Shown: positions 635 to 14,043 of the stretch, piece by piece
Layout: every line of letters starts with the position of its first letter
Numbering within the stretch: the stretch's first letter is position 1
Assembly (NCBI GenBank): GCA_028823105.1
Contig: JAPKCC010000031.1
Span: 1-32,855 of the forward strand
Length of the DNA stretch: 32,855 nucleotides
Direction of reading: 5' to 3'
From: Phycisphaerales bacterium
GTDB taxonomy: Bacteria > Planctomycetota > Phycisphaerae > Phycisphaerales > SM1A02
Program-made: the position numbers and the translations under genes
The notes under the pieces: generated by a model
Databases searched by the model: none
What the model was told of the DNA's origin: nothing
What the model saw: only the letters and a program-made list of their open reading frames with translations

Positions 635-1068
635 GGGTCGTGCTCCGTTCGTGAGATCAACCGGTGGGACTCGACGGTACCTCGGCGATGATATGCGATG
701 ATATGCGATGGTCCGAGACTGCTCGGCCGGGGTGCATGGCAGTGCCGGCCGGTCGATCCCGAAGCGGCGGCGCCGCATTCCGGGCACTGCCGCGGTTCCG
801 GTTCCGCGTTCATCCAGTCCAGTCGATCATTGCAATGGCCGCAGCGGTTCGGGTCACGGGGACGGAGTCTTCCGACCCAGCACCATCGAAGTCCCGCCAG
901 AAAGATCGCCGGCAGGAAGACGAGCAAGCCGTACGTGTTCGCGTAGTACGCAAGGGATCCGATCTGGCACGTGAGGCCGGACGAGCGACCCAGGAATGGA
1001 ATCGCCATCGCGATCACCGCCGCGGTCGGCCACCACCAGTCCCGAAGCCGTAGGCGGAGCACGTCCAT
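589..1068 (-). CDS. Putative small membrane protein with zinc ribbon
   Basis: The 159-residue reading from the ATG at 1068 has two hydrophobic segments, roughly residues 10-27 (WWWPTAAVIAMAIPFLG) and 38-62 (SLAYYANTYGLLVFLPAIF). A CxxC...CxxC zinc ribbon follows (NRCGHC and QCPECG, about residues 75-99). Planctomycetes commonly encode short membrane proteins with such ribbons, but I do not know a function. The last 50 or so residues are rich in Arg, His and Ser and look poorly protein-like, so the true end may be earlier through a frameshift or sequence error. The frame is open upstream to 1398, but no start there has a good ribosome site. Its tail overlaps the DUF2200 start. Coding status is moderate, function unknown. 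Confidence 0.45.
   Translation of the reverse strand: MDVLRLRLRDWWWPTAAVIAMAIPFLGRSSGLTCQIGSLAYYANTYGLLVFLPAIFLAGLRWCWVGRLRPRDPNRCGHCNDRLDWMNAEPEPRQCPECGAAASGSTGRHCHAPRPSSLGPSHIIAYHRRGTVESHRLISRTEHDPCRRPPPSTMHASRR
685..710 (+). repeat. Tandem 10-bp repeat (2.6 units)
   Basis: The unit gcgatgatat occurs at 685-694 and 695-704, followed by a partial gcgatg to 710. It lies 51-76 bp upstream of the DUF2200 start on the minus strand, inside the doubtful tail of the zinc-ribbon gene. A 10-bp period equals about one helical turn, so a protein-binding array is conceivable, but simple slippage is equally likely. Confidence 0.7.
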
Positions 1069-1456
1069 GGGATCGCGACAATCGAAGTTGGGAGGTTGTA
1101 TTGGCAACGCATCCTCTCCGAACCGTCGGGCGGAGCGTCCACCCTCGTCTGGAGGGATTCTAGTTCGGACCGCAGGTGGTGCTTCTTCGATTCTCCGCAC
1201 CTTCATCGTCTTTGTGACGTCAGTACGACACTTTTGGCGCCTCATACGCGACCATTCAGGAACATCCGCCACGTCAGCGTTTGAGAGAGGTTTCTCCGAC
1301 CCAGGAGGGGGCCAATCATGGTCGCGCCCGGGCCCAGATGCCCAGAGCGTCTTGGGTTGAGGGACGGCAGATTGAATGCCATAGACCGTTGGAACCAAGA
1401 TCCTGCGGGCTCGTCAGCGAGATCACCCGACCCGTGAGAAACGCTATGCTCCGTCT
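1069..1456. other. Stretch without a confident gene
   Basis: The minus-strand frame stays open through this 388-bp region, but the translation lacks domain-like character and no start has a convincing ribosome site. The right end should hold the promoter of the metal operon. A TATGCT hexamer at 1445-1450 lies 6 nt before the GTG at 1457. No clear -35 box was found, and no riboswitch or operator was recognised. Confidence 0.4.
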
Positions 1457-1921
1457 GTGAAGATTTTGGCCCATGGATTTCCTGTGCCGGTGTTTGCGCT
1501 GCTCCTCGCGACGGCGTTGGCATCGCGCGGGCCCGCTTCGATCCTATTCGCCGGCGATGTCCACGCCAACATCCATCATCATGACGGATCGTTGCATCCC
1601 CACGGCCACTCGCATCTCGAATCCGAAGGTACTCCGAGCGATTGTGGCTCGCACGACTTTCCCTGTGCGGGTGATTGCTTCGACGAGGACCACTGTTGCT
1701 GCCATGGGCACCATCATGACTGCGGTATTGGCAGCGATGCGCTTTACGCCCGGGAGCGAGATTCGGTACCGACACCGGCCACGATCGCATCATCGGCCGA
1801 TGCAAATCGACTGTGGCGGATGTTGCGGATGTCGCGTGCGCAACGGCACTTCAGGCCGCATACTCGTGGGCGACCGCCGGATTTCTTGATCCAACTCCGA
1901 ACACTTGTGCTGTTGACCTAG
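1457..1921 (+). CDS. Secreted His/Cys-rich protein, first gene of metal operon
   Basis: The 154-residue protein starts at GTG. A hydrophobic N-terminal segment (about residues 8-24) looks like a signal peptide or anchor. Two metal-ligand clusters follow: a His-rich stretch at residues 36-53 (HANIHHHDGSLHPHGHSH) and a Cys/His stretch at 74-89 (CFDEDHCCCHGHHHDC). The C-terminal third is basic and unremarkable. I do not recognise a named family. Position directly before a CzcCBA-type pump and ligand density suggest a periplasmic metal buffer or sensor-like accessory, which is inference. No Shine-Dalgarno precedes the GTG, while a TATGCT box ends 6 nt upstream, so a leaderless message is possible. 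A shifted ATG at 1473 opens a different, less protein-like frame. Confidence 0.65.
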   Translation: MKILAHGFPVPVFALLLATALASRGPASILFAGDVHANIHHHDGSLHPHGHSHLESEGTPSDCGSHDFPCAGDCFDEDHCCCHGHHHDCGIGSDALYARERDSVPTPATIASSADANRLWRMLRMSRAQRHFRPHTRGRPPDFLIQLRTLVLLT

Positions 1922-2018
1922 ATCCGGCTGGTTACCCCCGTCGTGCTATCACGTGCGCTACGCGCACCTGAGGCCTGATCGGTCTGCCTCACCCCGTTCG
2001 GAGTATTCCACCTTGCTG

Positions 2019-3449
2019 ATGAACCCATCCCGGCCCGCGGTCGCCCTTGCGGGCGCCATCGTGATGCTCGCGGGCTGTCAGAGCTATGAACCCAAACCGC
2101 TCGACCTCGCGTCTCACCGAGATATGTGGTCGGCTCGATTGCCGGGTGATGAGCCGGTGCGGGCGTTCGCCGAACGGCTGGCGGGATCTGGTCAACCCAG
2201 TGTCTTCGATCCCTCTGATGGGTTGAGCCTTGCCGAAGGCGAGCTGGTCGCGCTGGTGTACAACCCTGACCTGCGGCTTGCCCGCCTCCGTGCCGGCATC
2301 AGCGCGGCCACCGCGGATCACGCCGGTCTTTGGGATGATCCGCAACTGACGGTCGATTTCCTCCAGGTCACCGAGAGCATTCCGAATCCATACTTCATCA
2401 CTCCGGGTCTTGCGTTCACGATTCCAATCTCGGGTCGCCTCGACGCCGAGAAGGAGCGTGCGGATGCGGTGCTCGCAGCCGAGTTGACACGGGTGGCAGA
2501 GGTGGAGTGGGCGGTTCGGATTGAAGTCCGCCAGGCTTGGCTCCGCTGGTCTGCCGCGAAGATGCATGCCGAGCAGACCGAGCAGCTTCTTGCGTCGATC
2601 GAGTCGCTCGTGGGATCAACCTCGCGGCTTGCCGAAGCCGGCGAGATGCTGCAGACCGAAGCAGCGTTGTTCACCATTGAACGAGCGAGTCAATCGCGAG
2701 TACTCCTGAAGTTTCGTGGCGATGCGGCTGAGGCTGAGCAGCGGTTGCGATCACTGCTCGGAGTCTCACCGGATGCGCCACTCGAACTCCAGTCGACGTT
2801 GGTCGCGACCGCGGATCCCGACCAGCCAACGGCGGACGCTGCCGCCGAGCGGAATCTCACGTTGGTGCGGCTCCGAGACGAGTACGAGGTTGCGGAGCGG
2901 ACGCTCTATCGCGAGGTCCGGGAGCAATACCCGGATTTGACGATTGGGCCGCTCGCCGATTTTGACCAAGGGCAGAAGATGCTTGGTTTCTCTTTGGCGC
3001 TTCCGATACCCATCTTGAACGCCAACAAGCAGGGCATTGCAGAGGCGATCGCTGAGCGCGAACTCGCACGAGCGGCTTTCGAGACCGAGTACGATCGACT
3101 TGTTGGTTCACTCGCAGCGACGCAGGTTCGGATCGAAACGCTGCGTGAGCAACGGAATCTCATCGAGTCTGAGATCGCGCCATTGGTAGACCGCCAGCTC
3201 GGCGATGCCCAGCGGCTGCTGGGGCTCGGTGAGGGCGGGGGGCTCATTCTCCTGGAAAGTCTGTCGCGGGTCGGGCAGACACGGATGGAACTCATCGAGA
3301 CGCGGTTGGCCGAATCGCTCGCAGAGTCAGAATTGTCCCATCTCCTCGGTCCGCCCTCGCCGTCGATCGAAACAAGTGAAAACCCCACCGATCAGCACGC
3401 CACCACCGCAGGCCACGCCGGCTCGCGCCTCCCCAAGGTGACCCCATGA
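2019..3449 (+). CDS. Outer-membrane efflux lipoprotein, TolC/CzcC/CusC type
   Basis: The 476-residue product is the outer-membrane channel subunit of a tripartite heavy-metal efflux pump. The start at 2019 gives a short signal peptide ending in a lipobox (MLAGC, Cys20), as in CusC-type channels. The frame is open 22 codons further upstream, but that part would displace the signal. The body carries the two repeated long alpha-helical blocks of the outer membrane efflux family, with Ala/Glu/Arg-rich heptads around residues 130-260 and 330-450 and a GFSLALPIPILNANK strand segment. The C-terminal tail contains several His residues. Its stop overlaps the ATG of the adaptor gene (ATGA, 3446-3449), which implies translational coupling. 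Metal specificity cannot be read from this subunit. Confidence 0.88.
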   Translation: MNPSRPAVALAGAIVMLAGCQSYEPKPLDLASHRDMWSARLPGDEPVRAFAERLAGSGQPSVFDPSDGLSLAEGELVALVYNPDLRLARLRAGISAATADHAGLWDDPQLTVDFLQVTESIPNPYFITPGLAFTIPISGRLDAEKERADAVLAAELTRVAEVEWAVRIEVRQAWLRWSAAKMHAEQTEQLLASIESLVGSTSRLAEAGEMLQTEAALFTIERASQSRVLLKFRGDAAEAEQRLRSLLGVSPDAPLELQSTLVATADPDQPTADAAAERNLTLVRLRDEYEVAERTLYREVREQYPDLTIGPLADFDQGQKMLGFSLALPIPILNANKQGIAEAIAERELARAAFETEYDRLVGSLAATQVRIETLREQRNLIESEIAPLVDRQLGDAQRLLGLGEGGGLILLESLSRVGQTRMELIETRLAESLAESELSHLLGPPSPSIETSENPTDQHATTAGHAGSRLPKVTP

Positions 3450-4846
3450 CTACACAGACCAGACAGACCACACATATCAAACGACTCAAAACCGCAATGG
3501 CAATCGCGAGTGTCTCTCTGACGATGCTCCATTCAGGCTGCATTCAGGAACCACCGCAAAGCACCGGGCCGGATCAGGATGAGGCTGGCTCGGCGGACAC
3601 CAACCGGATCGACATCCCGGCGACCGTTCGCAGCAACCTCGGCATCACCTTCGTCAGTGTGGAACGTCGTCGCGTCGACAGCACGATTCGTGTGCCCGGA
3701 GCCTTCGAGCTCCAGCCTCGCGCCCGCCGTGAATACCGCATGACGCTCTCGGGCGAAGTCCGTCTCGAAGTCGACCAGTACCAGCAGATCGAGGCGGGCG
3801 ATGTGCTCTACCGTTTTCGCTCGCCGCGGTGGCCGGAGCTGCAGCACGAGATCATCATGGGCGAGCAAGATATTGAAACCGCGCTCGCGGAAATTGATGT
3901 TGTTCGAGCTCGGATCAGTGAGTCAGAGCGCCGGCTCGCCCTCACTCGTGATCGATTGTCTTCGCTCTCCGACGCGGAGATCCGTAACGCAGATCTTGAA
4001 GCACAGGCCGCGGAGATTGAGGCAAGCCTCCCGCGGATCGGCGCCGAGCTTCGCCAAGCTGAGACAAAGCTGGCCAATGCGCACCGTACTCGTGAACATG
4101 CGCTGCACCGAGCGTCAGCCGCGACCGGGATCGACGAGTCTCAGCTTTCCCAAGAGATTGAGCACGACGGGCAGATGCTCCCTTCCTATCGAAGGATCGA
4201 TTGGATCGAAGTCCGTGCCTCCGAATCCGGCGTGGTCGAAACACTTGCGTTGACCGATGGCGCATTCGCCGATTCCCCGTCGCTGGTGGTCTCAACGATC
4301 GACCCCACTCAGGTTCGATTCCGCGCGATCGCACTCCAGGCGGATCTCGTTCGGCTCGGCACCGCGGAAACCGGTCGAATCGTGCCCCCGACCACGCCCG
4401 GCATTCCGATCGGAGATGGCGTTGATTCCTCCATTATGATCGGGCTCGAAGCGCATCCCGAGCAGCGGACCGTCACGCTTCTCGCAACTCCCGTGGAGAG
4501 CAGGGCATGGATCAGACCGGGTGTATCCGCATTCCTCGAAGTTGTTGCTGAGACGACCGAACGCCCGGCGCTTGCCATCCCTCGTTCCGCGATCGTCAAG
4601 GACGGCATCACGCACGTCTTCTTCCGCCGTGACCCGAAAGACCCCAACAAAGCGATTCGAGTCGAGGCTGACATGGGCGTCGATGACGGACGCTGGGTCG
4701 CGATCAATAGTGGCCTCTCACTCCAAGACGAAGTCGTTCTCGACGGCGCATTCGAGCTCAAGCTGGCAACCCAGCAAAGCGGCGTGATGCAAAAGGGCGG
4801 CCACTTCCACGCCGACGGCACCTTCCATGAAGAAACCGATGAATAG
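3446..4846 (+). CDS. Efflux RND periplasmic adaptor, CzcB/CusB type
   Basis: This 466-residue membrane-fusion protein links the inner-membrane pump to the TolC-like channel. It has an N-terminal signal with lipobox (LHSGC, Cys32), so it is probably an inner-membrane-anchored periplasmic lipoprotein. A first barrel-sandwich half (about residues 70-125, with VDQYQQIEAGDVLYRFRSP) is followed by a coiled-coil hairpin (about 130-225). The second half contains ASESGVVETLALTDGAF, and beta-barrel and membrane-proximal regions follow. The last 17 residues hold four histidines (GGHFHADGTFHEE), suggesting metal binding at the tail. The start overlaps the channel gene stop by 4 nt, and the pump gene begins 13 nt after its stop. 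Family and operon role are secure; the metal handled is not. Confidence 0.9.
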   Translation: MTTQTRQTTHIKRLKTAMAIASVSLTMLHSGCIQEPPQSTGPDQDEAGSADTNRIDIPATVRSNLGITFVSVERRRVDSTIRVPGAFELQPRARREYRMTLSGEVRLEVDQYQQIEAGDVLYRFRSPRWPELQHEIIMGEQDIETALAEIDVVRARISESERRLALTRDRLSSLSDAEIRNADLEAQAAEIEASLPRIGAELRQAETKLANAHRTREHALHRASAATGIDESQLSQEIEHDGQMLPSYRRIDWIEVRASESGVVETLALTDGAFADSPSLVVSTIDPTQVRFRAIALQADLVRLGTAETGRIVPPTTPGIPIGDGVDSSIMIGLEAHPEQRTVTLLATPVESRAWIRPGVSAFLEVVAETTERPALAIPRSAIVKDGITHVFFRRDPKDPNKAIRVEADMGVDDGRWVAINSGLSLQDEVVLDGAFELKLATQQSGVMQKGGHFHADGTFHEETDE

Positions 4847-4859
4847 GAACGAGAGATCA

Positions 4860-7800
4860 ATGCTGAAACGACTTATTCAGTTCTCGCTCGATCATGCAGC
4901 GCTGGTGCTCGTGCTCGCCGGTGTCCTGCTCGCGGTCGCGGCCTTCCGCCTGCCCCAGACGCCGGTCGACGTGTTCCCCGAGCTTAATGCGCCGACGGTC
5001 GTCATCATGACCGAGTCGCCCGGTCTCGCGGCCGACGAGGTTGAGCAGTATGTCAGCTTTCCCATCGAGACCTCGGTCAACGGCATCCCAGGCATCCGCC
5101 GTGTGCGCACGAGTAGTGCTATTGGGCTGTCCATCGCCTACGTCGAGTTCGACTGGGGTGTAGACATTTACCGCGCCAGGCAGCTCGTTTCCGAAAGGCT
5201 CGACACGGTTCGTGAGGAGTTGCCGGCCGACGCCCACGCCGAGATGACACCGATATCGAGCATCACGGGAGAGATCATGCTGCTTGCGGTCTCCGCGTCC
5301 GGCGGATCCGTCTCGCCATTGGAACTCCGGGCCTACGCCGAATACGACTTGCGGAACAAGCTGCTCACGATCCCAGGCGTGGCCCAGGTTTCGGTGATCG
5401 GCGGAGAGCTCCCCGAGTATCAGGTGCTCGTGCAACAAGAGAAGCTGAGACTGTACGACCTCAACATCGGCGATGTCATCGCCGCGGCAGGTGAGTCGCA
5501 CAGCACACTGAGCGCCGGGTATCTGCCCGATGTGGGCAGCCTCGAACTGCCCATCCGCCAGAGCGGCCGCGTGCGATCGGTCGCCGACATCGACGGGACA
5601 GTGATCAAGTACCACGGGGGTGCCCCAGTCACGATCGGTCAGGTCGCCGATGTCCGACTCGGCCCGGCACTCAAACGCGGCACCGGGGCTGAAGGCGGCC
5701 GTCCCGCGGTTGTCATGACCGTGCAGAAGGCGCCGGGAACCAACACGCTCATCATCACAGATGAAATCGATGCCATGCTCGATGTGCTCGAAGCGTCGCT
5801 CCCGGAAGGCGTGGAGATAAACCGGCAGATCTTTCGTCAATCGGACTTCATCAACCTGTCCGTGACCAATGTTGTTCATGCACTCCGAGACGCGGCGATC
5901 ATCGTGTCGATCATCCTAGTCCTTTTCTTGCTCAACATCCGCGCGACGATCATCACGCTCACAGCCCTGCCGCTCTCGCTGGCGGTCGGCCTGCTCGCCC
6001 TCGATTGGATGGGCGAGACAATCAATGTCATGACCCTTGGCGGGCTTGCGATCGCCGTGGGTAGCCTCGTGGATGATGCGATTATCGATGTCGAAAATGT
6101 GTTGCGCCGAATGAAGCAGAACGCGGCCAAGCCCGAGGAGGAGCGACAGCCCAAGCTGAAGGTTATCTTCGACGCGAGCAATGAGATCCGCCCAGCGATG
6201 GTGTTCGCGACCATCATTATCGCCTTGGTTTTCCTGCCGCTGATGTTTCTCGAGGGGATCGAGGGCCGGTTTTTCCGCCCACTTGGCATCGCGTTTGTCG
6301 TGTCGATCGTTGCATCGCTCGCCGTCGCGCTCACCGTGACGCCGGCGATGTGTCGTTACCTGCTACACGCCCAGCCAAGCAAGCGGGAGTCGTCGGACGG
6401 CTTCCTCGTCCGGTTCCTCAAGCGTTTGTACGAGCCAAGCGTACGACTGGCAGTTCGTCTTCGGGTGTGGGTTCTTTCACTGGCAGGCGTCGCGACGGCC
6501 CTCGCGATCGCGCTCGCCTCGACGTTCGGGACCTCATTCCTGCCTGAGTTCCAGGAGGGCACCTTCACGGTTTTCCTCAGCGCACCGCCCGGAACCTCGC
6601 TCGTCGCGAGCGACCGCATGGCTTCGTCAGTTGAGAAGCAACTTCTCCTCGTCGACGGCGTCAGGAGTGTTACGCGGCGCACTGGACGCGCCGAACGCGA
6701 CGAGCACGCCGAGCCAGTCAGCAACTCTGAGATCGAGATCACGGTCCTTCCTGGTCATGACAACATCGTCGTCCGCGAGCAGATCTCGGAGATCCTCGAT
6801 CGCGTGCCCGGCATCACCACAAGCATCGGCCAACCGATTGAGCATCGCCTAAGCCACATCCTCTCGGGCACGCCCGCGGCCATCGCGATCAGCGTCTACG
6901 GTGACGATCTCGATGTGCTGCGGATGATCGCCAAGGAGATCGAGACGACGCTCAAACCGCTCCCTGGTGCCCGCGATGTTGCGGCCAATCGCGAGGTCAT
7001 GATCCAGTCGTTGCCCGTCGAGTACCAACCCACCGAGCTCGCGGCTTACGGGCTGACGCCCCGCTCGGCTTCGGAGCAGGTCCGTAACGCGATCTTCGGC
7101 GTCAAAGTCGCGGAGGTGAACGAGGGCGTCCGGCGCTACTCGCTTGTGGTGAGACTCGAAGACCAGGCGCGGGGCACTGTCCGCGATCTCAAGAACCTCG
7201 TGCTACAAGGCATGGGCGGCGCCCTGGTACGCCTCGGCGAAGTTGCGGTGATCGGCCCGGAGATGGCATCCAATCTCATCGTTCGCGAGAATGCCCAGCG
7301 GAAAGCGGTGGTGTCGTTGAACGTCGCCAAAGGATCGAATCTCGGGCACCTCATCGCGCAAGTGCGCGATCGTGTCGATCCGATCGTGCAGAAACATGGC
7401 TATAGCGTGAAGTACGGCGGGCAGTTCGAGGCTCAGCAGTCCGCCAGCCGGACCATCATGCTCTTCAGCGGGCTTGTTGTGCTGATCATGGTCGTACTGC
7501 TTCATCTCGCGATCGGTTCGCTGCGGGTGTCGCTGCTCGTACTGGTCAACCTCCCGCTCGCCCTCATTGGGGGCATTCTGGCGATCTTTCTATCCGAGTC
7601 GCCCAACCCAATTGCCAACGCCGCGGCCTTGTTCGGCATTGGAAGTTACATCGCCCCGGTCATCTCGATCGCGAGCCTTGTTGGGTTCATCACGCTGTTC
7701 GGGATTGCCGTTCGCAACGGCATCCTGCTGGTCAATCACTACAAGCACCTGATGACGGAAGAAGGAGTACCCATGCACGAGGCCATCGTGCAAGGGTCGA

Positions 7801-8024
7801 TGGAACGGCTCGTACCGATTCTCATGACTGCGCTCACCGCGGCCTTGGCCCTCATCCCGATCATTCTCAAGGGTGATAAACCGGGCAATGAGATCCTGGC
7901 TCCGCTGTCGGTGGTTATCCTCGGCGGTCTACTCACTTCGACATTTCTAAACCTCATCGTTGTACCGGCGGGCTACGCCGCCATCCACCGTCTCAAGATT
8001 GCGACCCGTGCCGGGCGCGACTAG
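4860..8024 (+). CDS. Heavy-metal efflux RND pump, CzcA/CusA family
   Basis: The 1054-residue inner-membrane proton-driven transporter has normal length for the HME-RND family. It shows the N-terminal transmembrane helix (about 10-30), two large periplasmic loops (about 31-335 and 525-855) and two sets of transmembrane helices. The helix-4 signature reads AIAVGSLVDDAIIDVEN, with Asp405, Asp406, Asp410 and Glu412. The DFG aspartate of classical CzcA is replaced by AVG, as in pumps outside the Zn/Co/Cd-type CzcA group. The periplasmic stretch RTGRAERDEHAEPV and the later GQPIEHRLSHILSG block are typical of this family. ATG 4860 is preferred over the upstream in-frame ATGs because GAGAG lies about 6 nt before it and the protein begins MLKRLIQFSL as relatives do. 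The substrate metal is unknown. Confidence 0.93.
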   Translation: MLKRLIQFSLDHAALVLVLAGVLLAVAAFRLPQTPVDVFPELNAPTVVIMTESPGLAADEVEQYVSFPIETSVNGIPGIRRVRTSSAIGLSIAYVEFDWGVDIYRARQLVSERLDTVREELPADAHAEMTPISSITGEIMLLAVSASGGSVSPLELRAYAEYDLRNKLLTIPGVAQVSVIGGELPEYQVLVQQEKLRLYDLNIGDVIAAAGESHSTLSAGYLPDVGSLELPIRQSGRVRSVADIDGTVIKYHGGAPVTIGQVADVRLGPALKRGTGAEGGRPAVVMTVQKAPGTNTLIITDEIDAMLDVLEASLPEGVEINRQIFRQSDFINLSVTNVVHALRDAAIIVSIILVLFLLNIRATIITLTALPLSLAVGLLALDWMGETINVMTLGGLAIAVGSLVDDAIIDVENVLRRMKQNAAKPEEERQPKLKVIFDASNEIRPAMVFATIIIALVFLPLMFLEGIEGRFFRPLGIAFVVSIVASLAVALTVTPAMCRYLLHAQPSKRESSDGFLVRFLKRLYEPSVRLAVRLRVWVLSLAGVATALAIALASTFGTSFLPEFQEGTFTVFLSAPPGTSLVASDRMASSVEKQLLLVDGVRSVTRRTGRAERDEHAEPVSNSEIEITVLPGHDNIVVREQISEILDRVPGITTSIGQPIEHRLSHILSGTPAAIAISVYGDDLDVLRMIAKEIETTLKPLPGARDVAANREVMIQSLPVEYQPTELAAYGLTPRSASEQVRNAIFGVKVAEVNEGVRRYSLVVRLEDQARGTVRDLKNLVLQGMGGALVRLGEVAVIGPEMASNLIVRENAQRKAVVSLNVAKGSNLGHLIAQVRDRVDPIVQKHGYSVKYGGQFEAQQSASRTIMLFSGLVVLIMVVLLHLAIGSLRVSLLVLVNLPLALIGGILAIFLSESPNPIANAAALFGIGSYIAPVISIASLVGFITLFGIAVRNGILLVNHYKHLMTEEGVPMHEAIVQGSMERLVPILMTALTAALALIPIILKGDKPGNEILAPLSVVILGGLLTSTFLNLIVVPAGYAAIHRLKIATRAGRD

Positions 8025-8064
8025 TTTCACCTGAACCCTTCGCACCTATGAAAGAGAGCAACCA

Positions 8065-8607
8065 ATGAAGACGAACTCGAATACCCCCCTTGGACTCACC
8101 CTGGCCGCCACTCTTGGCTTCATGGTCGCCGGCTGCGGCGAACCGAGTGAAGGCGACGCACATGGTCCCGAAACGGATAAGAGTCATGAAACGAGCGAAG
8201 ACAGTCATGTCCATGCCGATGGCTCGACCCACGCCGCCCACGAAGAAGAAGCGGCCGATGATCATGCTCACCATGACGACGAGGTCTCGCTCCCTTCAAC
8301 CATGATCGCCGACATGCAAGTTGAACTTGCTCAGGGCCACGGCGCGATCAAAGCCGGAGAAGAGAGTCACCTTGTTGTAAAACTGCCCTACAACGACAAC
8401 GGTGCGACTGTCATCCGAGCCTGGATCGGTACCGAAGATCGCACACTTTCGTTCGTTGGCAAAGGCGAGTACGCCTCCTCGCATGACGACTACGACATCC
8501 ACGCGATGGCACCGGACCCACTTCCCGAGAACGCCATGTGGTGGATCGAGATCGAGAATCCCGACGGCTCCAAGGGCCTTGGCTCCGCAACACCGATCAT
8601 GGAGTAG
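8065..8607 (+). CDS. His-rich lipoprotein, last gene of metal efflux operon
   Basis: The 180-residue protein has a signal peptide and lipobox (MVAGC, Cys24). An acidic His-rich linker follows at about residues 32-73, with HVHADGSTHAAH and DDHAHHDDE motifs. The C-terminal domain (about 80-180) is compact and beta-rich, with a LPYNDNGATVIRAWIGTEDR segment and a WWIEIENPDGSKGLGS ending. It starts 40 nt after the pump gene with a GAGAG ribosome site, so it belongs to the operon. A periplasmic metal-binding or metal-delivery role is inferred from composition and position; I know of no established function. The final 118 nt are duplicated 3675 bp downstream. This copy is the complete one. Confidence 0.8.
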   Translation: MKTNSNTPLGLTLAATLGFMVAGCGEPSEGDAHGPETDKSHETSEDSHVHADGSTHAAHEEEAADDHAHHDDEVSLPSTMIADMQVELAQGHGAIKAGEESHLVVKLPYNDNGATVIRAWIGTEDRTLSFVGKGEYASSHDDYDIHAMAPDPLPENAMWWIEIENPDGSKGLGSATPIME

Positions 8608-8951
8608 CGCTCAATCACCACACGGTCAGTCCCTTCGCTCGATGGTCTCAAATGCTTCGAGAGCCCGGATGCTGGGCGGTGGTCGGCGCCAAGAATTTCC
8701 TTGTTCGTGACAGATCACCATGTCATTCGCCGCCGTGGCCGTGACCGCCGTGGTGGTGACCGCGATGGTCGGCCGAATCGGGAGCGGGCTTGCACTTGCC
8801 CTTCTTCGCCTGCCACGCCTGGTCAATGGCAGCGAGGTACTTCACCGGTTCTGCGATGACCTTGGGTTCGCAGCCAGCGCAGCAGAGGCGACCAGCAACG
8901 ACCATCTCGGTGGGTTCGCCCATGGATCCGAGCGGTCCTCCCAAAACGACG
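8490..8951 (+). repeat. Left copy of 462-bp direct repeat
   Basis: This segment is repeated in the same orientation at 12165-12626 (offset 3675 bp). I counted five differences, at 8495, 8516, 8917, 8943 and 8944, leaving 400 identical bases at 8517-8916. It spans the 3' end of the His-rich lipoprotein gene, the convergent intergenic gap and the 3' part of the minus-strand CCxGC gene. Similarity stops abruptly at both ends. Confidence 0.95.
8723..8951 (-). pseudogene. Truncated copy of CCxGC metal-binding gene
   Basis: This minus-strand fragment encodes the last 76 or so residues of the gene kept at 12398-12745: GGPLGSMGEPTEMVVAG, the RLCCAGCEP metal motif, and the His/Gly-rich end HRGHHHGGHGHGGE. 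Homology ends at 8951, within the domain. Beyond it the frame stays open to 9088, but the translation is unrelated and contains no matching half-domain. The internal ATG at 8923 could make a 65-residue remnant; no ribosome site supports it. One coding difference from the right copy changes Lys to Glu in MGKPTE. It is most simply a by-product of the duplication. Confidence 0.75.
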
Positions 8952-9127
8952 GGTGAAGAGGAGGGCGATCCGAGCAGAGTTTGCCATGGTGGTTCTTTGT
9001 TTGTCGATACCAATGCATTCATTCGAGCATTCGGATATTTGGTTGCCAGGCATTGTCGTAACCCCATGCTGTGGCTGATCTTGGGCATGAGAAGCGTCTT
9101 TTCTCTGCAAGTCGGCTGGAATTGTCT

Positions 9128-9156
9128 TTGGTCATGCCGTTTTTCAGAGATACAGT
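9128..9156 (+). promoter_or_regulatory. Candidate sigma70-type promoter of the inserted gene
   Basis: TTGGTC (9128-9133) and TACAGT (9151-9156) each match the consensus at four of six positions and are separated by 17 bp. Transcription would start near 9163, about 60 nt before the ATG at 9224. It is the best-spaced pair I saw in the 272-bp gap between the left repeat and the gene. Confidence 0.35.
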
Positions 9157-9223
9157 GTTGAGTGCTTTCGGAGAACAGAGCGTCCCGACATGTTTAGACC
9201 CACATATTCGAGGATCAAAAGAG

Positions 9224-12097
9224 ATGATTCATAAAACTGTCATTGGTGTATTTGCTGCGTTGTTCCTGATGATCCCAGCCCCGGCCGCTCATGCTCAGAT
9301 TGGACAGTGGGTGTTCGGTATCGACGGCGTACAGGAATCAGGCGAACGCATCAGCCAACTCGATGACGGTGATTTTATTTCCTGCGGAAGAAATGGTTAC
9401 ATCACTCGCCACGATGGCACCACCACCGTGATCGAATGGATGATCACCATTCCGGATTTCTATCCTCACGACGTGATCGAAACAAACAGTGGTCAGATTG
9501 CCGTCGCCGGTATGTTCTTCGTGAACAGCAACCAGGCCTTTGTTGCGATGGTCCTGCTTGATGGTACGGGATCTCTTCTGTCACATCGTGTGTATCCGGG
9601 AAATGACCTGTATCAACTTCTCGAACTCATTCAAACGAATGATGAAGGCTTTCTGATTGCGGTGGAGGTCATCGATCCCAGTTCCTCAAGCAGGCATCCG
9701 ATGCTCATCAAAACCGACCCCAGTGGCATGGAAATCTGGATGTATCGCTACGACGCTTCGGATTTCCTGTTCGAAGATGCTGCTTTCTGTTTCGTGGAAG
9801 AAGAGGTAAAGGATGATGCCCACTCCTTGTATCACCTGACCGGGCGATTCAAGGGTAGTTTCACCATGAGTCTTGAAACCTTGATGATGACCGTTGACCA
9901 GGACGGTGTTGTCCAGGCGGCCGCCACGATCGGATTCGACAATCACTCCGATTATGGTCGCGGTTTACGGCTCACAGGTGATCAGATTCTTGTCACCGGC
10001 TATTCCAAGGAGATCGGTGAAGGTGGTGGTACCTATTTGATGCTTGTGGACATGGGCTTCAACATCATGTGGTACTACGGCATTGAATCCTTCTCGGGTA
10101 CCAAGGAGATCGTCCTGGATTCCGATGGTCAGGTGATTCTTGTTGGTCGAACGAGTTTTCCGAATCCTGTCGATAACGCCGCAATCGTTGCCTGCGAATT
10201 TACAAACCCCACAAACATCACGGGTATGCAGTATGGCGGGCCGCTTTCGGATTATGCCAATGATTATGCCGTCGATGCCTTGACTGGTGGGTACGCATTG
10301 CTCGGCGCAACACAATCATTTGGAGCCGTTGAGCAAGACCACTATCTCGTGAGGACGGATGCAAACATGAACAGCGGCTGCAATGAATCAGAATTTGCGC
10401 CGCTGGTTGTGCCCAACCCGATTCCCATGATCCCCGTGATCTTCGATTCGATAGCGGTCAGTTCGGTCAGCCAGCCGCAAATGCAGCGTGCAAATGTGGC
10501 ATACTTCGAGGATCCCATCTGCGAGGATCCGCCGGATCCCTGTGCATGCGTTGATCCACCCGTGGACATGGTCGGGTGGTGGACCATGGATGAACTCGTC
10601 GGTCCGATCGCAGCCGACTCGGTTGCCGGCAACGATGGCAATTACGTGAGTAGCCCGATCCCCTCGGTTGGCAAGGTCGACAACTGTCTAGACTTCGATG
10701 GCATCGACGATTACGTCACGGTGCCGGATGATGCCCTCCTGGACGTGGGGACGTCCGTTGACGGGGACTTCACGATCGATGCGTGGATCTGGATCGATAC
10801 AACCACCACGATGGAATGGGGGCCGATCGTCGATAAAATTGGAGCGGGCATCGGCTACGAATTCTACGTACACGACGATACCCTTCAGTTGTACCTTGCC
10901 GATCCGCTGATGCAGGCATTTCTCGCCAGTACGAATCCGGTCCCTCACAATGAGTGGGTACACGTGGCGGCGATCGTGGATCGAACCAGTGGGAGTCGCT
11001 TCCTCATCAACGGCGTGGAGGAATTGGCCGTTGGTGTGCCTCCATCGATGAGTTACGAGAACAACTCCGCGTTCCTGATCGGCAAGATGAACTCGGAACC
11101 CTTGAATTCCGGGTCGCCACCGCATTATTTTGACGGCAAGATCGACGAGGTTGAATTCTTCAATCGAGCTCTTGATACCAGTGATGTGCGGGGGATCTAC
11201 AACGCAGGAGATTGCGGCAAGTGCAAGGTCGATTGCAATCCGCCGTGGGACGTGCCGTTCTGTATCGACGATATGTCTGTCATCGTCGGGATACCTGTCT
11301 GCAATTATTCCCCGATCGATGCCACCGTTGAACTCTCCTTTGCGGGGCTAACCCCTGCAACCTGTGGCGGTATCGACGGCCCGATCAACTTCACGGTTCT
11401 TTCGCCGGGCAACCCTCTCGTTGTTCCGGGCAACCAGTGCGTGACGGTCATGGTGAAGATCGAACGCCCCATCCAGATGGTCGCGCTCAACCAGGTGGGC
11501 TGCTACGAGGTCACGGTCACAAATCTTGGTAACGGGAATTCGAGTACGTGTCGCGGTTCGGTGCAGGACAAACGTAACCTCTGTCCCCTGAGTCCAGATG
11601 ATGAGGTTGCGATGGTCATTGGTCTTCCAACTCAGATCAGCATCCCAATCCTCAACACCGCCTTCAAGAGTGAAACAATCACCTGGCGCGCGGTGGCCTA
11701 CGACCCGAACATGGAATTGAGTGACAACTATTCACTCGATGGTGGCGAGCCAGGCTCTTCAGCTGGCGGAGAAATCCAAACGGCAATTGGAGAAATCTCC
11801 ATGTTGCGGATTGATGTCACGGCAATGGCCTTCGAGTTTGGATATTCCGACCTTGTCATCTACACCCAAGAGGAAGGCGAATTCTATCCACTGACGTCCA
11901 TCATGATGAAGACGGTCATCGCCGAGGGTTGCACAGGCGACTTCAACGACAGTGGTTTCGTTGATGGTGGCGACCTTGGCTTGCTCTTAAGCGCCTGGGG
12001 CAAGTGTCGTGGGTGCCCGGAAGATCTGAATGGTGATGGCTTGGTCAACGGAGGTGACCTGGGCATCTTGCTTGCGCTCTTTGGACCGTGCCCCTGA
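9224..12097 (+). CDS. Large secreted propeller/LamG protein with dockerin-like tail
   Basis: The 957-residue protein begins with a clear signal peptide (cleavage probably after AHA, about residue 24). Residues about 26-420 resemble a beta-propeller built from repeated 'ITGxTxxxGxGxTYLMLVD'-like blades, as in delta-60 or SBBP-type proteins. Residues 449-655 form a LamG/concanavalin-like domain (GWWTMDE, FDGIDDYVTV, WVHVAAIVDR, FDGKIDEVEFFNRAL). A Cys-containing beta-rich region follows. The C-terminus carries two dockerin-like calcium loops, GDFNDSGFVDGGDLG (about 905) and DLNGDGLVNGGDLG (about 933). ATG 9224 has AGGA 9 nt upstream and starts the signal peptide; the upstream open frame is not convincing. 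By eye, base composition is less GC-rich than in flanking genes. It is the only gene between the two 462-bp repeats and has no evident link to metal efflux. The role is probably extracellular or cell-surface. Confidence 0.85.
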   Translation: MIHKTVIGVFAALFLMIPAPAAHAQIGQWVFGIDGVQESGERISQLDDGDFISCGRNGYITRHDGTTTVIEWMITIPDFYPHDVIETNSGQIAVAGMFFVNSNQAFVAMVLLDGTGSLLSHRVYPGNDLYQLLELIQTNDEGFLIAVEVIDPSSSSRHPMLIKTDPSGMEIWMYRYDASDFLFEDAAFCFVEEEVKDDAHSLYHLTGRFKGSFTMSLETLMMTVDQDGVVQAAATIGFDNHSDYGRGLRLTGDQILVTGYSKEIGEGGGTYLMLVDMGFNIMWYYGIESFSGTKEIVLDSDGQVILVGRTSFPNPVDNAAIVACEFTNPTNITGMQYGGPLSDYANDYAVDALTGGYALLGATQSFGAVEQDHYLVRTDANMNSGCNESEFAPLVVPNPIPMIPVIFDSIAVSSVSQPQMQRANVAYFEDPICEDPPDPCACVDPPVDMVGWWTMDELVGPIAADSVAGNDGNYVSSPIPSVGKVDNCLDFDGIDDYVTVPDDALLDVGTSVDGDFTIDAWIWIDTTTTMEWGPIVDKIGAGIGYEFYVHDDTLQLYLADPLMQAFLASTNPVPHNEWVHVAAIVDRTSGSRFLINGVEELAVGVPPSMSYENNSAFLIGKMNSEPLNSGSPPHYFDGKIDEVEFFNRALDTSDVRGIYNAGDCGKCKVDCNPPWDVPFCIDDMSVIVGIPVCNYSPIDATVELSFAGLTPATCGGIDGPINFTVLSPGNPLVVPGNQCVTVMVKIERPIQMVALNQVGCYEVTVTNLGNGNSSTCRGSVQDKRNLCPLSPDDEVAMVIGLPTQISIPILNTAFKSETITWRAVAYDPNMELSDNYSLDGGEPGSSAGGEIQTAIGEISMLRIDVTAMAFEFGYSDLVIYTQEEGEFYPLTSIMMKTVIAEGCTGDFNDSGFVDGGDLGLLLSAWGKCRGCPEDLNGDGLVNGGDLGILLALFGPCP

Positions 12098-12164
12098 CGT
12101 GACTTGAGCGCGATAATCGCCTTGGCGGCATCTTCGACGAGCGGCTGGACCGACAAGGGACCGT

Positions 12165-12626
12165 CTACGGCATCCACGCGATGGCACCGGTCCCACTTCC
12201 CGAGAACGCCATGTGGTGGATCGAGATCGAGAATCCCGACGGCTCCAAGGGCCTTGGCTCCGCAACACCGATCATGGAGTAGCGCTCAATCACCACACGG
12301 TCAGTCCCTTCGCTCGATGGTCTCAAATGCTTCGAGAGCCCGGATGCTGGGCGGTGGTCGGCGCCAAGAATTTCCTTGTTCGTGACAGATCACCATGTCA
12401 TTCGCCGCCGTGGCCGTGACCGCCGTGGTGGTGACCGCGATGGTCGGCCGAATCGGGAGCGGGCTTGCACTTGCCCTTCTTCGCCTGCCACGCCTGGTCA
12501 ATGGCAGCGAGGTACTTCACCGGTTCTGCGATGACCTTGGGTTCGCAGCCAGCGCAGCAGAGGCGACCAGCAACGACCATCTCGGTGGGTTTGCCCATGG
12601 ATCCGAGCGGTCCTCCCGCAACGACG
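12165..12626 (+). repeat. Right copy of 462-bp direct repeat
   Basis: This is the second copy of the segment at 8490-8951. It completes the minus-strand CCxGC reading frame on its right side, whereas the lipoprotein gene is cut off on its left side. Differences lie within the first 27 bases and the last 35 bases, while the 400-bp core is identical. That pattern suggests recent duplication or ongoing homogenisation of the core. Confidence 0.95.
12166..12282 (+). pseudogene. 3' remnant of His-rich lipoprotein gene
   Basis: This fragment encodes the last 38 or so residues of the lipoprotein at 8065-8607 (IHAMAPVPLPENAMWWIEIE through ATPIME) and ends at the same TAG. Upstream, the frame stays open only to a TGA at 12100-12102. 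The extra residues (LERDNRLGGIFDERLDRQG) do not resemble the complete gene. There is no signal peptide and no start before an internal ATG at 12181. One substitution changes Asp to Val relative to the intact gene. Confidence 0.75.
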
Positions 12627-12745
12627 CAGGTCTCAAGGGGGTAGTCCTTGCGCTGCGTGTCGGCAACGGCCTTATCGAGTATCTCGATGAACTTCTTCGG
12701 GCTCGCTTTGAACTGACGTTCGCAGCCCTTGCAGCACAGGCGCAC
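12398..12745 (-). CDS. CCxGC metal-binding protein, probably 5'-truncated
   Basis: The 115-residue frame contains 1.5 copies of a repeated domain. It opens in the middle of one unit (VRLCCKGCERQFKASPKKF), then holds a full unit: YPLETCVVAGGPLGSMG, RLCCAGCEPK, PVKYLAAID. It ends in a His/Gly tail (HRGHHHGGHGHGGE). Relatives I recall have complete units and a signal peptide, so the first half-unit and leader appear missing. The only plausible start is GTG 12745, with no good ribosome site. Its frame is the same as that of the upstream BudA-like gene and separated from it by one TGA (12764-12766). The Cys pairs and His tail point to binding of copper or a similar metal in the periplasm; this is inference. 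It may be expressed, or it may be a remnant. Confidence 0.5.
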   Translation of the reverse strand: MRLCCKGCERQFKASPKKFIEILDKAVADTQRKDYPLETCVVAGGPLGSMGKPTEMVVAGRLCCAGCEPKVIAEPVKYLAAIDQAWQAKKGKCKPAPDSADHRGHHHGGHGHGGE

Positions 12746-12763
12746 GAGCCGGTTCTGATGAGA

Positions 12764-13528
12764 TCAGCCTGCGGCTGGCAGCTGCAGCGACGCGCCTGGC
12801 TTCAAGGTCAAACCGTCGATGTGGCCGGTCAGCACGCGGCCGTCATATTCGATGATCGCATGCACGTGGATGGCGGTGCCGTGGTGGGTGAGCACACCCG
12901 CTGCGTCGGCGGCGTAGAAGCCCACGATGCGTGCGTTCCGCGGCTTGTCGGTTGACCATCGCCACGGTTCAGCGTCGATGCTTGTCGGATTCGTCGCGTG
13001 GGGGCAGAAGCCATTGATGACGTGGATCTCTAGTCGCTCGGCGACGCCGTCGATCACGAATGGGAACGGACGAGTGGTATCAACGCCGTGATCGCGAGCG
13101 GTCTGCTCGATCAATGCCTCGAGCTCGGCACCCGTCGCGGACTTCTCCATGGTGAGTTCGACGCGGTCCCACCGTGCCACGGATGCGACAGTCAAGAGCG
13201 TCGCCTGATCGCTCGGTGACGCACTCGGCCCGGAGATCTGTACGCCGTCGCCATCGGGTCGAGCGACCCAGACCTTACCGTCGAGAATCGTGACTTCGCC
13301 CTCGAGACCCGCAAGTGCGCCCACGGCAATCACGCCCTGGCTGGAGACGTCGACCAACCCGACCCGAGCCTCGGTCTGCCCGTCACGCATGACCGCTCGC
13401 ATCGCGCCATGTTGCTGCACCTCGATCGCCGTCGCTCCTTGCTTCGAACATCCGGCGCTGAGGGCAAGGCATGCGATGACTGCGATGACCATGATGACGG
13501 TGATCGATCGAAAGTAATCAAGATGCAT
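12764..13528 (-). CDS. Lipoprotein related to acetolactate decarboxylase (BudA/AlsD)
   Basis: The 254-residue product has a signal peptide with lipobox (LSAGC, Cys27). Two blocks match the alpha-acetolactate decarboxylase fold: EGEVTILDGKVW at residues 76-87, and ARIVGFYAADA...HVHAIIEYDGRVLTGHIDGL at 199-240. His221, His223 and His236 are placed like the zinc ligands of that enzyme, although the second gap is two residues longer than in AlsD. The region where AlsD carries its catalytic arginine reads LEIHVINGFCPHA, so the classical reaction is doubtful. Known BudA/AlsD enzymes act in acetoin synthesis and are not lipoproteins. ATG 13528 has GGAG about 10 nt upstream. The gene sits beside a metal-binding frame, so a metal-related extracytoplasmic role is possible but unproven. 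Confidence 0.65.
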   Translation of the reverse strand: MHLDYFRSITVIMVIAVIACLALSAGCSKQGATAIEVQQHGAMRAVMRDGQTEARVGLVDVSSQGVIAVGALAGLEGEVTILDGKVWVARPDGDGVQISGPSASPSDQATLLTVASVARWDRVELTMEKSATGAELEALIEQTARDHGVDTTRPFPFVIDGVAERLEIHVINGFCPHATNPTSIDAEPWRWSTDKPRNARIVGFYAADAAGVLTHHGTAIHVHAIIEYDGRVLTGHIDGLTLKPGASLQLPAAG

Positions 13529-14043
13529 GAATTCGAAGCTCCGACGTGATCTCTATGAGAATGCGTACTGGCGGAATATCCGGGAAAAGCGTTATACCCT
13601 TGTGCGCGGAGTTGGTACGAGGAGATCCCCCAGGCCAGCGGCATAGATACACCGATGCACGCCGGACGACGGATTTTCCCGTCATGCGGCCTCTTGGACC
13701 CTGTTCGGATCCGGCCTTGTGGTCGGGAGCGTGATCGCGATCCTCGCGGCCGCGAATCGATCGTGATTGGGCCGGGTACCTCTGCTCCTGGTCGGCATCC
13801 TCAGCGTCTGGATCGGGCTTTTCTACTTGGCTGGATGCCGCGCATGCTGGTGGTCGGATCCGTGTTTGGGTTGTCGTTGCTGCTGCTTGGATGGTGTCGC
13901 CGGCGTGCTCGATCGAAGTCGATGCTCCGGTCGAATGAGGGCGACGTTTCAAGGTCGCCGATCTCCGATCTGATTTAGTCGGACGATCCGGGTTGCGGGT
14001 CGCATGGACTCGCCGTCGTCGGAGACTGGTTACCTTCGAGCGC
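13529..14043. other. 515-bp stretch without a confident gene
   Basis: This stretch should hold promoters for the divergent BudA-like and dehydrogenase genes; a TATAAC hexamer lies on the minus strand near 13590. Plus-strand frames between about 13680 and 13950 encode three hydrophobic stretches (GSGLVVGSVIAILAAA, LLLVGILSVWIGLFYLAG, MLVVGSVFGLSLLLLG). They are spread over two frames and interrupted by a TGA, with no good start. This could be a decayed small membrane gene, a frameshifted assembly, or chance. Confidence 0.35.

Follow-up and report, generated by a model that had tools for sequence, protein, structure and literature searches.

A secreted LamG/dockerin-type gene between 462-bp direct repeats in a planctomycete draft genome: a probable case of insertion with long target duplication

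By comparing Helicobacter pylori 26695 with J99, Nobusato et al. (Gene 2000) arrived at the proposal of insertion with long target duplication, and in the passages that describe it (PMC3031569, PMC1643837, PMC4978471, PMC2869330) the cargo frequently consists of restriction-modification genes. For Arabidopsis, Woodhouse et al. mention long target duplication as one explanation and, in the part of their text concerned with it, prefer the insertion of a circle (PMC2869330). In the relevant section of their work, Johnston et al. (PMC3784515) propose that donor DNA bridging two sister chromatids leads to duplication of whatever lies between its points of attachment, and homology-facilitated illegitimate recombination, as outlined in the corresponding part of PMC3240628, combines one homologous and one illegitimate end.

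The gene acquisition considered here probably belongs to the first of these kinds, insertion with long target duplication, and the features described for that kind are found in it. It lies in a window of 32,855 nucleotides (the whole stretch of DNA that was analysed, which is a whole contig of a 3.35-Mb draft genome in 194 contigs). As in the passages on long target duplication, a gene-sized insert is missing from the orthologous place in a close relative, the long direct repeats that flank it are single-copy in the empty allele, and no transposase is apparent. Unlike the H. pylori cases described there, the planctomycete cargo is of the secreted LamG/dockerin type and not restriction-modification, and the copies in the window show an identical core with altered edges. 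Similarly, the transposed Arabidopsis genes, for which circle integration was proposed, have flanking direct repeats that match the orthologous target and are largely genic; in that eukaryote part of the reported cases have source genes within the genome (PMC2869330), whereas here only dockerin-tail matches are present. The bridging of two sister chromatids by donor DNA, proposed as the route to pneumococcal transformation merodiploids, would yield the structure of the window, although the duplications in that account span about 100–900 kb and involve existing repeats (PMC3784515), whereas here the duplication is 462 bp and the empty allele has no pre-existing repeat. The entry of short foreign DNA into a chromosome without mobility genes is also a point of likeness to homology-facilitated illegitimate recombination, but, as far as the mechanism is set out in PMC3240628, a long duplication is not predicted by it alone. 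No planctomycete case of such an insertion was among the part of the titles listed in a literature search. The preliminary description had presented the locus as an unusual non-transposon route; no transposon hallmarks were seen, but such a route has already been published under the name of insertion with long target duplication. The reading that we regard as probable is that foreign DNA of 3.2 kb was inserted downstream of a metal-efflux cluster with a 462-bp target duplication, the core of which was later homogenised. The features of the locus are as follows.

8065–8607, plus strand: intact lipoprotein-like gene, its 3′ end inside the left repeat copy, beside a CusA/CzcA-type efflux gene
8490–8951: left repeat copy, 3675 bp before the right copy; its left side is native, and its right side, which faces the insert, is altered
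8517–8916: identical core, 400 bp equal to 12192–12591, from which the relative G007 differs by scattered bases and gaps
8723–8951, minus strand: 3′ fragment of the CCxGC (TRASH-like) frame, cut off by the insert
8952–9223, plus strand: left noncoding end of the insert, GC 48.5%, for which the search of 181 family genomes (few candidates scored in each) listed no match
9224–12097, plus strand: cargo gene for a secreted-type protein that has a LamG-like domain and ends in a dockerin type I-like tail
12098–12161: right noncoding end of the insert, short
12165–12626: right repeat copy, altered on its left (insert) side and native on its right side
12165–12282, plus strand: dead 3′ lipoprotein fragment, carrying D144G and D151V
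12401–12763, minus strand: longer native CCxGC frame, 121 aa, perhaps truncated at its own start

A repeat of this extent, with five differences and a 400-bp identical core, had already been claimed, and an ungapped comparison at an offset of 3675 bp confirmed it: the two places, 8490–8951 and 12165–12626, form a 462-bp direct repeat whose copies differ only at 8495, 8516, 8917, 8943 and 8944, and the exact run of 400 bp extends over 8517–8916 and 12192–12591. BLAST extends the match to 8487–8951 and 12162–12626, at 98.7% identity. Self-comparison of the window gave no second long direct repeat, and the left copy, used as a query against the 3.35-Mb genome, returned just these two places, both in the window contig. 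Past the ends of the repeat no significant similarity was detected (best E 0.046). A longer, diverged lipoprotein fragment upstream of 12165 was rejected, since the residues there align unconvincingly with homologs, and the junction was therefore placed at about 12162.

An empty site in a relative, which the preliminary description had suggested looking for, was found in G007, a genome of the same genus. The lipoprotein was matched in 26 of the 61 genomes searched (the window's own, G000, and 60 relatives), and its closest relative is that of G007, at 93% protein identity. On contig G007:C130, positions 817–9067 align to window 746–8951 and positions 8619–10104 to window 12162–13663, and the two alignments overlap only in the repeat; G007 has a single repeat copy, no insert, collinear flanks and the same genes adjoining. 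The DNA of 7400–8951 was matched in four of the eight genus genomes, the window's own included: in G005 the match, at 72–75%, is to segments that precede the end of the lipoprotein gene, with an additional 65-base piece at 83%, in G003 it covers 28 bases, and only in G007 does it span the repeat, so that polarity is read from one genome. Relative to this empty site, in which the target is single-copy, the comparison shows the arrangement of the window to be an insertion. Acquisition of the gene by insertion is thus well supported, with the structure read from one assembled contig and one informative empty-site genome. In the same region, G007 (L061, 10105–10723) has about 620 bp that are absent from the window at 13659–13663, beside the same genes, which is an indel between the two species.

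The upstream gene at 4827–8024 matches PF00873 and reaches 688.8 bits against TIGR00914, slightly below the cut-off of 701.45, and the lipoprotein at 8065–8607 has no family match in Pfam or NCBIfam. The right copy retains the last 39 of the 180 lipoprotein residues. On the minus strand, the CCxGC frame of 121 residues survives in the left copy for about 75 residues inside the repeat, the listed match there covering 80 residues at 93% identity and running slightly past the repeat. Of the reciprocal truncation proposed earlier, the lipoprotein half is firm, as this gene is completed by the left copy, but completion of the CCxGC gene at the right is doubtful, because the 121-aa frame starts directly after the stop of the neighbouring gene, the best seven matches outside the genus lie in open frames of 317–455 aa (two of them with stops inside the match), and the G007 version has an internal stop, its frame being split over two matches (L061, G007:C130, 8848–9206, minus strand). 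All TRASH-type matches of 12401–12763 were sub-threshold. The split frame in G007 suggests either that the gene is decaying in the genus or that the G007 assembly contains an error. Among 63 lipoprotein loci, four have a CCxGC relative, adjacent only in L132 (the G007 contig) and about 2.4–3.9 kb downstream in L134, L139 and L143, so that adjacency of the G007 type is not general.

Some further observations concern the same genes and their relatives. The minus-strand gene at 12764–13528, adjoining the metal-related genes, is alpha-acetolactate decarboxylase-like (PF03306, 39.3 bits, cut-off 25), and its protein lies far below the NCBIfam equivalog cut-off for that enzyme. In a congener, L062 (G005:C103) carries the lipoprotein domain in tandem at 3377–3716 and 3746–4085, with DNA 82.6% identical, and both matches fall in an open frame listed as 331 aa. 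A direct repeat of at least 100 bp at no less than 90% identity occurs in one of the 63 lipoprotein loci from named genomes, L173 of Verrucomicrobiales, in which 4829–5039 and 5886–6096 form a 212-bp direct repeat of 91% identity, 1057 bp apart, in the same lipoprotein family; this could be another small insertion with target duplication.

The open reading frame of the cargo opens at 9071, and the ATG at 9224 was chosen as the start. The protein matches PF13385 with its LamG-type domain (3.5e-22), its tail alone matches PF00404 at 1.9e-5, and the NCBIfam GC-type dockerin model stays below its cut-off; the PF13385 and PF00404 matches agree with the earlier statement that the sole cargo is a secreted LamG/dockerin-type gene. 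Composition was compared with 358 kb of the genome, with open reading frames picked mechanically and their gene status unchecked. The 148 open reading frames of at least 400 aa in this sample have a GC of 0.622 ± 0.017, and the cargo, at 53.8%, is lower than all of them; its tetranucleotide distance exceeds that of all 209 windows of the sample. The GC3 of the cargo, 0.634, is low yet inside the sample (7.4% of the 148 frames are at or below it), and the 15 dockerin-like frames of the sample have GC contents of 0.596–0.642.

The distribution of the cargo is uneven. The whole protein matches 50 of 61 genomes, most of the listed matches being short and confined to the dockerin tail; the C-terminal half was matched in G026, G021, G034, G018 and G033, and a near-full-length match among the 61 was seen only in G013, at 45%. 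At E ≤ 1e-8, the N-terminal part was detected in four of the 181 family genomes, the window's own included, and in one of the eight genus genomes. The GC of the cargo relatives in G013 and G112 equals that of their own surroundings. At the DNA level, the insert matches 55 of the 181 family genomes, mostly at the dockerin tail, and outside G000 the listed matches leave bases 1–1037 uncovered and reach no further than base 3151 of 3210 (two candidates scored per listed genome). A source of the insert was not found in the 181 family genomes (few candidates scored in each), in viral contigs or in plasmids, and the window's own genome contains no source copy of the cargo except dockerin-tail matches. 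From its alien composition and patchy distribution, the insert looks foreign to the host genome. Elsewhere in this genome, the 3′ end of L095 (G000:C54) and positions 8461–8690 of L106 (G000:C95), both dockerin-type stretches, have 230 bp in common at 99.6% identity, perhaps through recent exchange between paralogous tails.

The absence of a transposase, an integrase and a terminal inverted repeat, noted at the outset, was borne out by inverted-repeat, RNA and domain searches. None of 15 inverted-repeat pairs links the two insert ends, no RNA family was found up to E = 1 in 8000–13600, and no transposase or integrase domain was found in the cargo protein, the only insert frame scanned, or in five neighbours. 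A transposon, an integron cassette or a phage-borne insertion that has lost its mobility gene is hardly credible as the origin. The foreign composition of the insert would suit such an origin, as would the match of the LamG stretch to five PHROG phage protein families, one of them a virion structural family, but LamG is widespread, so that a phage-family match says little. Transposases duplicate a few bases of their target rather than 462, no terminal inverted repeat was found at the insert ends and the window contains no tRNA. In addition, genome-contig and viral-contig scans with the single cargo protein, which detect close relatives only, gave no relatives, and among 72,556 plasmid records there was one match, to LamG only. 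The repeats were also considered as arms of a composite transposon; this was rejected, as no insertion sequence was seen and the repeats consist of the end of one gene and part of a gene on the opposite strand. Ku-dependent end-joining was set aside because no Ku gene was found in the draft genome (among 14 control genomes, Ku was detected only in Bacillus subtilis). ComEC is present in the genome, as it is in 10 of the 14 controls.

The five differences between the repeat copies can be polarised against G007. At 8495 and 8516 the left copy equals G007 and the right copy is changed, and at 8917 and 8943–8944 the right copy equals G007 and the left copy is changed; in all four events, each copy is native on its outer side and altered on its insert-facing side, for which the random chance is 1 in 16. 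The event at 8917 is ambiguous, the altered copy encoding E (12 of 19 homologs), the native copy K (2 of 19) and G007 T, and at 8943–8944 the altered copy gives L, which is present in none of the 19. In the right-copy lipoprotein fragment, D144 has become G where D stands in all eight aligned sequences (including the window's own and two from G005), and D151 has become V where D stands in seven of the eight. These left-edge changes look more like those of a dead fragment in decay than like a functional allele from a donor.

All differences fall within the outer 62 bp of 462, which has a chance of about 3e-4 under an even spread. Fourfold-site divergence between G000 and G007 is 88 of 1417 over five neighbouring genes, or 0.032 per lineage. 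The core contains 285 bp that belong to a cut-off gene fragment in one copy or the other, and about nine changes would be expected there if the duplication were as old as the G000/G007 split, against none seen (P about 1e-4); at the edges, four changes were seen against 2.0 expected (P 0.14), so the neutral expectation is not exceeded. The core is more alike than the edges beyond chance, and from this we infer that it was homogenised. Of the earlier proposal that edge clustering reflects an older donor copy homogenised in the middle, the contrast between core and edges stands, but an older donor is not favoured at the left edge, in view of D144G and D151V. The identical core may be explained in one of three ways: exchange homogenised it, the insertion is recent and its edges changed as it took place, or the assembler merged variants.

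An older date would be compatible with insertion and target duplication, and differs from the favoured reading in age: the insertion would precede the G000/G007 split, and G007 would have lost it through recombination between the repeats. The insert-side edges, with four events in 61 bp (6.6%) against a neutral change of 3.2% per lineage since the split, point in this direction, but the excess is not significant at the P value just given, and neither G007 nor any of the other six congeners gave a match to the N-terminal part of the cargo. We consider this early date distinctly unlikely.

The main rival, an assembly artefact, is unlikely, and would bear on both the repeat and its core. A graph loop, formed by a separate circle or by the copy of another strain, could have been walked through the chromosome, or core variants could have been merged, and merging by assemblers would be expected to leave just such a pattern, edges that differ around a core that does not. 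The assembly is a draft of 194 contigs, and in a repeat sample of 358 kb (15 of the 194 contigs, four of them in part, mostly chosen for dockerin-like genes) there is no other exact within-contig repeat of at least 64 bp, so that a 400-bp exact repeat is exceptional there. Contig C54 ends 70 bp from the 230-bp stretch that is 99.6% identical to C95, which indicates that contig breaks can occur close to repeats. Walking through a loop in an assembly graph need not involve any ambiguity, but the result would be the same for a separate circle. Against an artefact, the 30–35 bp on either side of the cargo are homologous to the native site and yet differ from it (identities 27 of 30 and 32 of 35). 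Since altered edges would not arise from an erroneous join inside shared sequence, some molecule probably has the cargo next to the repeat on both sides, an arrangement that requires either a duplication or a circle; as judged from the sequence, the cargo probably lies between repeat sequences either in this chromosome or in a circle. The insert contains no replication gene. Overlaps of contig ends, which might have revealed the word size of the assembler, were absent among 28 ends (12 whole contigs, of which the window is one, gave 24 and partly covered contigs four).

In the favoured reading, insertion with target duplication, the incoming 3.2-kb DNA with its one secreted LamG/dockerin-type gene would have entered downstream of the metal-efflux gene cluster and duplicated 462 bp of the target, leaving one copy bordering each side. 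The left side would thereby have kept the complete lipoprotein gene and the right side the longer CCxGC frame, with a shortened version of each in the opposite copy. The two incoming ends would have joined the chromosome at points 462 bp apart, most simply on two sister copies of the replicated region bridged by the donor; a circle intermediate could have had an equivalent effect. Recombination of the RecA type between the two copies may then have kept the 400-bp core identical, and the outermost 26–35 bp, too near the ends to be copied over, would have drifted. Such exchange has a minimal homology length and cannot copy stretches too close to the ends of a repeat.

The preliminary description had favoured integration, by a single crossover, of a 3675-bp circle that held the cargo together with an internal piece of the locus. 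The structure is compatible with it, but no donor with cargo plus locus was found in the family genomes, viral contigs and plasmids searched, and direct insertion with target duplication fits equally; we regard the circle as unlikely. The polarity against G007 is of the Campbell type, running from native to altered in the left copy and from altered to native in the right (with 8917 ambiguous), and direct repeats of this size would permit excision; in a variant, the circle could even now be excised from the chromosome and enter it again. The same polarity of hybrid copies is, however, also expected from the decay of dead fragments. A circle needs a donor in which the cargo was already joined to the locus, and no such donor or circle was seen in the 181 family genomes (few candidates scored in each, one genome per species), in viral contigs or in plasmids; outside G000 the matches to the insert DNA were confined to the dockerin tail and to short conserved stretches (few candidates scored per genome), and the cargo relatives in G013 and G112 have no long flanking repeats. 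A diverged donor should moreover leave differences across the repeat, and the core has none. In Arabidopsis, Woodhouse et al. argue for the re-insertion of circles at homologous targets, in the part of the text that treats it (PMC2869330).

It is very unlikely, but worth stating, that the insert is a transposase-free cassette with its own 462-bp attachment segment, cycling between chromosome and circle by host homologous recombination. If this were true, populations could acquire and lose a surface-protein gene precisely, the cassette itself would be the origin of the altered edges, and the core would be identical because it is often exchanged with the chromosome.

Insertion with long target duplication has been known since 2000, its mechanism is left open in the passages describing it, and the examples cited there are mostly restriction-modification genes of H. 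pylori. The locus described here is a case outside restriction-modification genes, in which a sister-species empty site, an alien gene of surface-protein type and repeat copies with an identical core and altered edges make the mechanism testable. It also suggests a way in which uncultured planctomycetes could enlarge their sets of secreted proteins without the help of mobile elements.
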